A program made the translations under genes and the position numbers. A stretch of DNA of 64,000 nucleotides from Actinomycetota bacterium (GTDB lineage Bacteria > Actinomycetota > Acidimicrobiia > Acidimicrobiales > Palsa-688), in the NCBI GenBank assembly GCA_021323695.1, contig JAJPKN010000020.1:1-64000 (forward strand), in the 5' to 3' direction. Of the stretch, positions 52,351 to 59,337 are shown one piece after another. A model generated the notes under the pieces. The model saw only the letters and a program-made list of their open reading frames with translations. It was not told the origin of the DNA and searched no databases. Every line of letters starts with the position of its first letter. Position 1 is the stretch's first letter.

Positions 52351-53580
<1,230 letters not shown>

Positions 53581-53664
53581 CAGGTCGTGCCTGCAGCTCC
53601 TGGCCGGCTGGCTGCCCCGCAGCCGCGGCTGAACAAGGCCAAGAGCACAGGGGCTGACCGAAGC

Positions 53665-53741
53665 TATAATACTACTCGTCACGTAGGGTGACATGTTGGG
53701 CGTGGGCTTACCTGCCTGGCAGGGTGCCCACGCTTTTGTTT
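53665..53741 (+). promoter_or_regulatory. Promoter followed by hairpins and T-run ahead of rimP (candidate attenuator)
   Basis: TATAAT (53665-53670) is the best -10 box in the window. Downstream are a hairpin GTCAC (53678-53682) / GTGAC (53688-53692), then a strong stem GCGTGGGC (53700-53707) / GCCCACGC (53726-53733). The strong stem has a nested CCTGCC/GGCAGG, and TTTTGTTT (53734-53741) follows. This is a textbook intrinsic terminator placed about 60 nt after the expected start of transcription and 59 nt before rimP. It could be an attenuator for rimP-nusA-infB, the end of a short RNA, or the ispG terminator. Confidence 0.7.
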
Positions 53742-53799
53742 GCAGAGCTGGACGAGCCGGCAGGCCAACCAAGGGCCGGCAGGGTGACGAGGAGGTGAG

Positions 53800-54384
53800 A
53801 TGGCCACAGCAGAGGAGCTGGCAGCGACGCTCCGGCCGACGGTAGCCGCGGCCGGGCTCGAGCTCTGGGACGTGGAGCGGGCCAGCAACCTGGTCAAGGT
53901 CACGGTCGACCGTCCCGGCGGCGTGGACCTGGACGCCATCTCCGCCCTGAGCCGGGCTTTGGCCAGCGTCCTCGACCGGCGGGACGACCTCGTCCCCCGG
54001 GGTCATTACGTGCTGGAGGTCTCCAGCCCCGGGGTCGAGCGCCGCCTGCGCCGGCCCGAGCACTTCGCCCGCTGCATCGGGGCACGGGTGGCGGTCAGGA
54101 CGACCGAGCCGGTGGGAGGCCGCCGGCGCCTCGAAGGCACCCTGGTGGCCTGCGACGACGAGGCCATATCGCTCCAGCTGGCGCCCGAGCTGGGCGCCAG
54201 CCCGCGTGCCCCTGGCTCGCAGGGGGCGGCTGCCCCGACCGGGAGCGAGCCCGGCCCCGCCGCCAGTCGCGTACGCATCCCGTTGCGGGTGGTCGAGCGC
54301 GCCCGCACGGTTTTCGACTGGGGTGCCTCGCTCAAGCCCGGCTCAGGTGCAGGGCTTCGCCCGCTAGCCAGTGGGGCCGCCTGA
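53800..54384 (+). CDS. rimP: Ribosome maturation factor RimP
   Basis: The 194-residue 30S assembly factor carries AAAGLELWDVERASNLVKVTVDRPGGVDLDAISALSRALASVLD and YVLEVSSPGVERRLRRPEHFARCIGARVAVRT. A Pro/Ala/Gly-rich insert of about 30 residues near the C-terminus is not typical. GAGGAGG lies 5 nt before the ATG. It overlaps nusA by one base (TGATG). Confidence 0.95.
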   Translation: MATAEELAATLRPTVAAAGLELWDVERASNLVKVTVDRPGGVDLDAISALSRALASVLDRRDDLVPRGHYVLEVSSPGVERRLRRPEHFARCIGARVAVRTTEPVGGRRRLEGTLVACDDEAISLQLAPELGASPRAPGSQGAAAPTGSEPGPAASRVRIPLRVVERARTVFDWGASLKPGSGAGLRPLASGAA

Positions 54385-55745
54385 TGAGGGACAACTTCGC
54401 CTTCCAAGAGGCGCTGCAGCAAGTGGCAAGGGAAAAGGGGATCAGCGTCGACGTGCTCCTCGACGCCTTGGCCAACGCCTTGGTGGCTGCCTACAAGCGC
54501 ATGCCGGGGGCAGCCGAGGAGGCGGTCGTGGCCATAGACCTCGACCCCTTTGACATCCGCGTGTACGCCCAGGAGCTCGATGAAGAGGGCAACGTGGTGC
54601 GGGAGTGGGACGACACCCCCAAGGACTTCGGCCGTATCGCCGCCCAAACGGCCAAGCAGGTCATCCTCCAGCGGGTGCGGGAAGCTGAGCGGGACCGCAA
54701 GTACGAGGAGTACGCCGGCCGGGAGGGCGACATCGTCACCGGCATCATCCAGCAGAGCGACAACCGTTACACGCTGCTGGACCTGGGCAAGGTAGAGGCC
54801 CTCCTACCTCAGGCCGAGCAGGTGCCTTTCGAGCACTACGAGCACAATGCCAGGCTGAAGGCCTACATCGTCGAGGTCCGCAAGACGAGCAAAGGGCCCC
54901 AGATCGTGGTGTCCCGGACCCACCCTGGGCTGATCAAGCGGCTGTTCGAGCTGGAGGTCCCAGAGATCGCCAACGGCATCGTCGAGATCAAGGCCTGTGC
55001 CCGGGAGCCGGGCCACCGCACCAAGATCGCCGTGTGGTCCAATGACCCCAACGTGGACCCGGTCGGTGCCTGCGTCGGGGCCCGAGGTGCCCGGGTGAGG
55101 ATGGTGACCACCGAGCTGCGGGGCGAGAAGGTCGACATCGTCCCCTATTCCGAGGACCCCCGTGAGTTCGTGATGCGCGCCCTTCAGCCCGCCAAGGTGA
55201 AAGACGTCGTGCTGGACGAGGACTCCGGCACCGCCATGGTCGTGGTCAACGACTACCAGCTCTCCTTGGCCATCGGCAAGGAAGGCCAGAACGCCCGTTT
55301 GGCGGCCAGGCTGACGGGCTGGCGGATCGACATCAAAAGCGAGAGCCAGCTGGCTGAAGAACAGGCCTATGCCGCCCAGGAGTGGGCCGAGGGCGAGTGG
55401 GTCGAGGACGAAAACGGTGAGATGGTGTGGAAGCCGGCTGGAGGCGGCCAGGGCGTGTCGGTCGAGGAGTGGGAGGCCCAGAGCGCCGCGGGTGAGGCCA
55501 CCCAAGGCAGCGGATCATGGGCCGCCGGCAGCCAGCCCGGGGAGGCCGGCGGGGCTCCTGGGCAGGCTGAGGGCCAGGTCGAGCAGAAGGGCGCCGGGCC
55601 CTCTGCCAGCGCGGAGGTTGGCGGCGCAGAGGTGGCTCCGGCCGAGGGCACGCCGGGCCCGGCCCCGGGCCAGGCGGTGGACGGCGTCGGCCTGAGCCCC
55701 ACCGACGGTACTTTGGCGGGCGAGCCTACACGTGAGGTGGGCTAA
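54384..55745 (+). CDS. nusA: Transcription termination/antitermination factor NusA
   Basis: The 453-residue factor has the polymerase-binding N-terminal domain. An S1 domain follows ([34 protein letters not shown]), then two KH domains ([29 protein letters not shown] and [23 protein letters not shown]). The final 110 residues are acidic and Gly/Ala-rich, without the helical repeats of the enterobacterial protein. The TAA stop is followed immediately, in the same frame, by ylxR. Confidence 0.96.
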
Positions 55746-56085
55746 ACGAGCGCGCCTACCCGGACCTGCATCGGGTGCCGGGCACGGGAGCCTGCCGATA
55801 GACTTGTCCGTGTAGCCCTGGAGGCCGACGGCCAGGTGGTCATCAGCCGGGGCGCGCCTGGCCGTGGTGCGTGGCTTTGCCAGTCCGCCACCCCTGGGCT
55901 CCCCAAGCCCGAGTGCTTGGCCGCGGCCCGGCACAGGGGTGCCTTCAGCAAAGCTCTGCGTGCTCCGGTGGCTGACAGTGAGCTGGAGGTGCTGCCCATG
56001 GCCAGCACCAAAGGTGCGAGGATTTGGGGCAGGGGATTTCTCCCGGGTGCCCAAAGGGGACCGAAGGAAGGGACCAGCAAGCAAC

Positions 56086-56093
<8 letters not shown>
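55746..56093 (+). CDS. ylxR: YlxR (DUF448) RNA-binding protein with apparent ACG start
   Basis: The frame right after the nusA TAA reads TSAPTRTCIGCRAREPADRLVRVALEADGQVVISRGAPGRGAWLC...PECLAAARHRGAFSKALR, which is a complete YlxR protein with its RTCIGCR and GRGAWLC motifs. No ATG, GTG or TTG occurs before GTG 55836, and starting there would delete half the fold. ACG 55746 is therefore the most likely start, probably reached by ribosomes that have just terminated nusA. Alternatives are an ATG-to-ACG change making a pseudogene, a base-call error, or stop read-through. The usual order nusA-ylxR-infB supports the identity. About 115 residues. Confidence 0.75.

Positions 56094-59337
<3,244 letters not shown>

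Follow-up and report, generated by a model that had tools for sequence, protein, structure and literature searches.

The leader of the rimP operon (rimP-leader) was once called the most ubiquitous transcription attenuator, its sensor then being guessed from sequence. In its general form the rimP-leader consists of a GGGc(...)gCCC terminator with a U-stretch, placed 4-130 nt before the gene and bearing a signature that is nearly exclusive to the operon (Naville & Gautheret 2010, PMC2965389). A gammaproteobacterial tandem form, with an upstream terminator/antiterminator pair, is represented in Rfam by RF01770. In S. agalactiae, RNA-seq of gbs0413-gbs0418 revealed two transcripts that share one start, a long one and a short one terminated 31 nt downstream (PMC4448216). 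For B. subtilis the autoregulation of NusA is experimental, with NusA stimulating the terminator in the leader, as related in the passage of PMC12288461 that cites Mondal et al. 2016.

The leader described here precedes rimP-nusA-infB in a stretch of 64,000 nucleotides from an uncultured member of the Acidimicrobiales (the whole stretch is called the window below) and, judged by its sequence, is a member of the known rimP-leader kind: it shares with the general form the position before the operon, the GGGc...gCCC stem, the U-stretch and, at 58 nt, the distance from the gene. It differs from that form in its extended outer stem, GCGTGGGC, and in the hairpin at its 5' end; in addition, the window's family adds a loop of 18-26 nt with a nested helix, and some lineages carry the leader before nusA, with rimP missing. 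The preliminary description had not settled whether the leader is related to known rimP attenuators. Such a relation holds for the general form but does not extend to RF01770, whose covariance model matched 0 of 21 genomes (the window's own and 20 relatives) at E <= 0.001, with E. coli alone matching among the control genomes; likewise, an Rfam search of the window gave no gathering hit for rimP, and permissive settings applied to the leader returned nothing relevant. RF01770 concerns the same operon and the same general idea, but its terminator/antiterminator pair is not seen in the window leader. The streptococcal and window leaders have in common the operon and a terminator just downstream of the start, at ~60-65 nt as predicted for the window versus the 31 nt of S. 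agalactiae. With B. subtilis, as far as the cited passage describes it, the window shares a leader terminator of the intrinsic type in NusA's own operon, a likeness that does not come from direct sequence comparison; the stimulation by NusA that is shown there is a presumed one here.

The open-access literature that we searched contained no account of this leader from Acidimicrobiia and none of its retention before nusA after loss of rimP, which is not proof of absence. The leader is now documented through an uncultured actinobacterial order in which it goes undetected by the Rfam model, and it supplies a simple signature for annotation.

Anatomy of the leader

All genes discussed lie on the forward strand. 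The first gene of the operon, rimP (53800-54384, 194 aa), which encodes a factor for ribosome assembly (30S maturation), carries Pfam RimP_N (5.3e-16) and the RimP C-terminal domain, and is preceded by a Shine-Dalgarno sequence, GGAGG, at 53791-53795. It is followed by nusA (54384-55745, 453 aa; Pfam NusA_N 2.2e-22 and NusA KH_5 3.9e-28), which encodes the transcription factor NusA as the presumed feedback regulator, and by infB (55864-59337), a listed open reading frame with an uncertain start codon and recognisable GTPase motifs of IF-2 in its translation. The upstream gene is ispG (gcpE; 52351-53580; Pfam GcpE 2.7e-137). The upstream neighbour of rimP varies, and ispG is not adjacent to rimP in most relatives' loci, which indicates that the leader belongs to the rimP operon.

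The putative promoter is marked by a -10 element, TATAAT, at 53665-53670 on the forward strand, which proved on recounting to be, as the preliminary description had claimed, the only exact copy on either strand of the window (G+C 71%). Transcription is predicted from the position of this element to start at 53677, ~7 nt after it. No near-consensus -35 hexamer was found for this promoter, and a promoter scanner gives no forward-strand promoter here. Most relatives have TATANT or a similar box at the matching place; in the window's family the distance from this box down to the stem is typically ~30-45 nt. A block like GGCCAAG..GGGGCCGACC, common to close relatives, occupies 53636-53664, adjoining the -10 element where a -35 element would be; it is possibly a factor site.

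At the extreme 5' end of the leader, folding places a hairpin, GTCAC-GTAGG-GTGAC, at 53678-53692 (arms 53678-53682 and 53688-53692). The terminator hairpin, which bears the GGGc...gCCC signature, spans 53700-53733 on the same strand, with an 8-bp stem formed by GCGTGGGC (53700-53707) and GCCCACGC (53726-53733); inside its loop, in what the alignment identifies as a family-specific insertion, lies a nested helix at 53711-53723 (CCTGC 53711-53715, GCAGG 53719-53723). The U-tract TTTTGTTT follows the stem directly at 53734-53741, where the 3' end of a terminated leader RNA of ~65 nt is expected, and the terminator ends 58 nt before the ATG of rimP. This layout of two hairpins, 8-bp stem with nested helix and T-run had been proposed from inspection, and it is borne out by both the sequence and the fold: the minimum free energy fold of 53677-53742 is exactly the 5' hairpin plus the terminator hairpin (-34.2 kcal/mol, z = -4.3), with 0 of 200 shuffles as stable. 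When the leader is folded on to the ATG its stability is unremarkable (z = -1.06), so the signal is confined to the two 5' hairpins. The terminator is missed by the scanner because scanner loops are limited to 3-8 nt.

The 5' hairpin recurs at the same place with different sequences in most family members (GTCACC/GGTGAC, AACCGCC/GGCGGTT, CCGCTCG/CGGGCGG and others), and the subgroups fall in different registers there in the family alignment. Its stability in single sequences is modestly above that of mononucleotide shuffles (mean z -1.7), so the argument for it is this recurrence with changed sequence. A role for it as a conserved antiterminator was rejected, its complementarity to the terminator arms being inconsistent across relatives. 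Likewise rejected, as a conserved switch, was a distal pairing of CGTCAC (53677-53682) with GTGACG (53783-53788) that appears in the fold to the ATG; the distal sequence is missing in close relatives. Between these sites, 53756-53782 represents ~25 nt of extra spacing between terminator and rimP relative to a congener (L003), and a repeated GCCGGCAGG within it could fold as a further, non-conserved hairpin.

Distribution ahead of rimP

To describe the leader in relatives, the region upstream of rimP was extracted at 78 distinct loci of Acidimicrobiales. The same kind of terminator is present in 77 of the 78, mostly with a different upstream gene; a scan for a GC-rich hairpin with a T-run recovered 74, and three were recognised on inspection (L012 and L013, whose loops are long, and L071, with a misplaced start codon), leaving L076 as the only one of the 78 leaders in which it is absent. 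The stem, whose conservation the preliminary description had named as a refutation test, is therefore conserved and not a product of chance, and these loci show the leader, at the level of sequence, to be ancient in Acidimicrobiales. A cultured relative, Acidithrix ferrooxidans (locus L054), likewise carries a leader hairpin of this class.

The motif is also specific. A strict pattern, GCGTGGGC(3-26)GCCCACGCTTT, occurs in 21 of 61 genomes, 20 times directly before rimP and once (G039) before nusA, as placed by comparing match coordinates with the coordinates of the rimP search; it occurs at no other place in the 61 genomes, and the reversed control gave zero matches. The strict pattern is thus confined to the fronts of rimP and nusA, which is the operon-specific motif by which the rimP-leader is recognised. 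Over the order, 28 of the best 30 places of a looser pattern adjoin rimP, the exceptions being L210 and L216, which have long loops. Outside the order the hairpin takes the form AGTGGG...CCCACT, and nearly all of its occurrences precede rimP or nusA; exceptions are G128:C5, G124:C35 and G124:C118, and G067 is apparently split by a contig end. The few places away from the operon that looser patterns yield comprise these three, L210, L216 and G004:C17.

The hairpin was not found ahead of rimP at L117, L130, L137, L139, L140 and L158, which belong to a family with genomes of 7-10 Mb (f55), nor at L159-L161, L164 and L170. Judging from these sequences, part of the phylum, including the large f55 genomes, seems to have lost the leader, and the feedback proposed below would therefore not be universal. 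In f55 a conserved block, GACCGGATACCCTTTGACC.., occupies the region ahead of rimP instead of the hairpin. In one further genome (G151), two RimP_N matches were observed, G151:C51 and G151:C21.

Leaders before nusA and the probable sensor

While rimP is usually present in bacteria, none could be recognised in 19 genomes, of which 16 belong to family f41, two to f59 and one to f9 (G039, a member of the Acidimicrobiales). Neither RimP domain reaches the Pfam cut-off anywhere in these 19 genomes. In all 19 the hairpin stands directly before nusA, with no rimP intervening, and it usually has a TATANT box ahead of it; most f41 leaders, too, keep a box resembling TATAAT or TATACT. G039 has a prolyl-tRNA-synthetase-like gene followed in turn by TATACT, a 5' hairpin, GCGTGGGCGTTGCCCACGCTTTT and nusA, and in G283, of the same family, rimP still lies between leader and nusA. 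A sequence-divergent RimP could conceivably be encoded elsewhere in the 19 genomes, but these loci have no room for one between leader and nusA. From the sequences, entire families of Actinomycetota MAGs with small genomes, together with one Acidimicrobiales genome, appear to have dispensed with rimP (apparent loss at L233, L238 and L242-L260 in f41, f59 and f9), and the pattern would suggest that the losses were independent in the three families. The retention of the leader before nusA after loss of rimP argues that it serves nusA (or a downstream product) and not rimP. These rimP-less lineages amount to a natural experiment, whose outcome favours NusA (or a downstream product) over RimP as the sensor.

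Our preferred reading, to which we assign a probability of about 0.8, is that the rimP-nusA-infB leader is a NusA-stimulated terminator of the rimP-leader class that gives negative feedback. RNA polymerase would start near 53677 and make the short 5' hairpin, followed by a strong intrinsic terminator with the GGGc/gCCC core. NusA bound to the polymerase would then promote hairpin-dependent pausing and termination in the U-tract at 53734-53741, and may also read the conserved stem. High NusA would result in more termination, in the form of the ~65-nt leader RNA, and in less transcription of the operon, while low NusA would permit read-through into rimP, nusA and infB. For this organism, an uncultured MAG, we infer where transcription starts, that it ends at the terminator and that NusA acts as the sensor. 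The attenuator already suspected in the preliminary description gains support from the conservation of promoter and terminator before rimP across the order and from the GGGc...gCCC signature; it is also backed by the leader kept before nusA without rimP and by NusA autoregulation in B. subtilis as given in the cited passage (PMC12288461).

The rimP-less loci also bear on whether an attenuator in the same operon might respond to a different sensor, be it RimP, IF-2, a ribosomal factor or NusG, which we consider unlikely. RimP and IF-2 are encoded by the operon as well, and in B. subtilis NusG enhances termination at intrinsic sites (PMC12288461); however, RimP is improbable as a general sensor because the leader persists where rimP does not, and the order shows no separate conserved RNA element that might serve another sensor.

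Stem core and loop insertion

When the hairpins are aligned by their core, the GGG/CCC pairs hardly vary within the family, the order or the phylum, while the flanking pairs change in compensation: either T-A or C-G precedes the core, and position -3 is C-G within this order versus A-T elsewhere in the phylum. The hairpins in this set were picked for pairing and from a core-motif list, so the percentages paired are inflated and the invariance is partly selected; the best hairpins picked without the core motif have the same core in most loci. A nearly invariant core beside compensating flanking pairs suggests that the core sequence itself is recognised.

By this comparison the core is conserved beyond the needs of a generic terminator, which counts against an unregulated terminator/promoter module that would insulate the operon from upstream read-through and provide constant low transcription. 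Read-through from ispG or proS could indeed be stopped by a strong terminator behind either gene, and in most family members the predicted fold of the full leader is dominated by the terminator stem, but the motif is almost exclusive to the rimP/nusA operon and a promoter-like box precedes the terminator in nearly all relatives, so that the terminator would act on the operon's own transcript; we regard such a module as very unlikely. The short RNA that had been raised as an alternative is expected, at ~65 nt, as a by-product of NusA-stimulated termination, and nothing suggests a separate function for it: promoter, two hairpins and terminator do form a compact unit, but a stand-alone, trans-acting small RNA of this size is scarcely credible for a unit that, throughout the phylum, remains linked in cis to rimP or nusA and whose 5' part differs in sequence between lineages.

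The terminator loop usually measures 18-26 nt in the window's family, compared with mostly 3-7 nt in the other families of the order. The insertion reads CCTGCCTGGCAGG in the window and CCTGCGTGGCAGG in many relatives and is similar to portions of both arms of the stem; in the family alignment its CCTG/CAGG is nearly invariant and the TTTGT of the U-tract invariant. In folds of truncated transcripts the 5' arm can be trapped by the loop before the 3' arm exists, both in the window and in most of the nine nearest leaders; over the whole family this trapping is inconsistent, and the terminator dominates the full leader. Some 10 nt separate the end of the nested helix from the U-tract, a spacing at which a pause hairpin would act. 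It is conceivable, if doubtful, that the insertion makes the terminator of this family a kinetic switch, in which pausing prolonged by NusA would decide whether the trapped 5' arm refolds as part of the terminator.

Other lineages elaborate the leader differently. In three loci of one genus (L017, L021 and L031) an extra conserved hairpin, GCTTTGCTGGCGCA..CCGGCGA, lies after the 5' hairpin and ahead of the terminator. Many Acidimicrobiaceae-type genomes carry a strongly conserved 5' leader part, ACAGTCCGC..GGACGTTTGGACTCGTTTAA, before the terminator (at L046, L056, L067, L069, L077, L086 and L098, among others), in which AGTCC is able to pair with GGAC or GGACT. The GGACTC of these leaders looks loosely like GAACUC, a sequence in the RNA that mycobacterial NusA binds.
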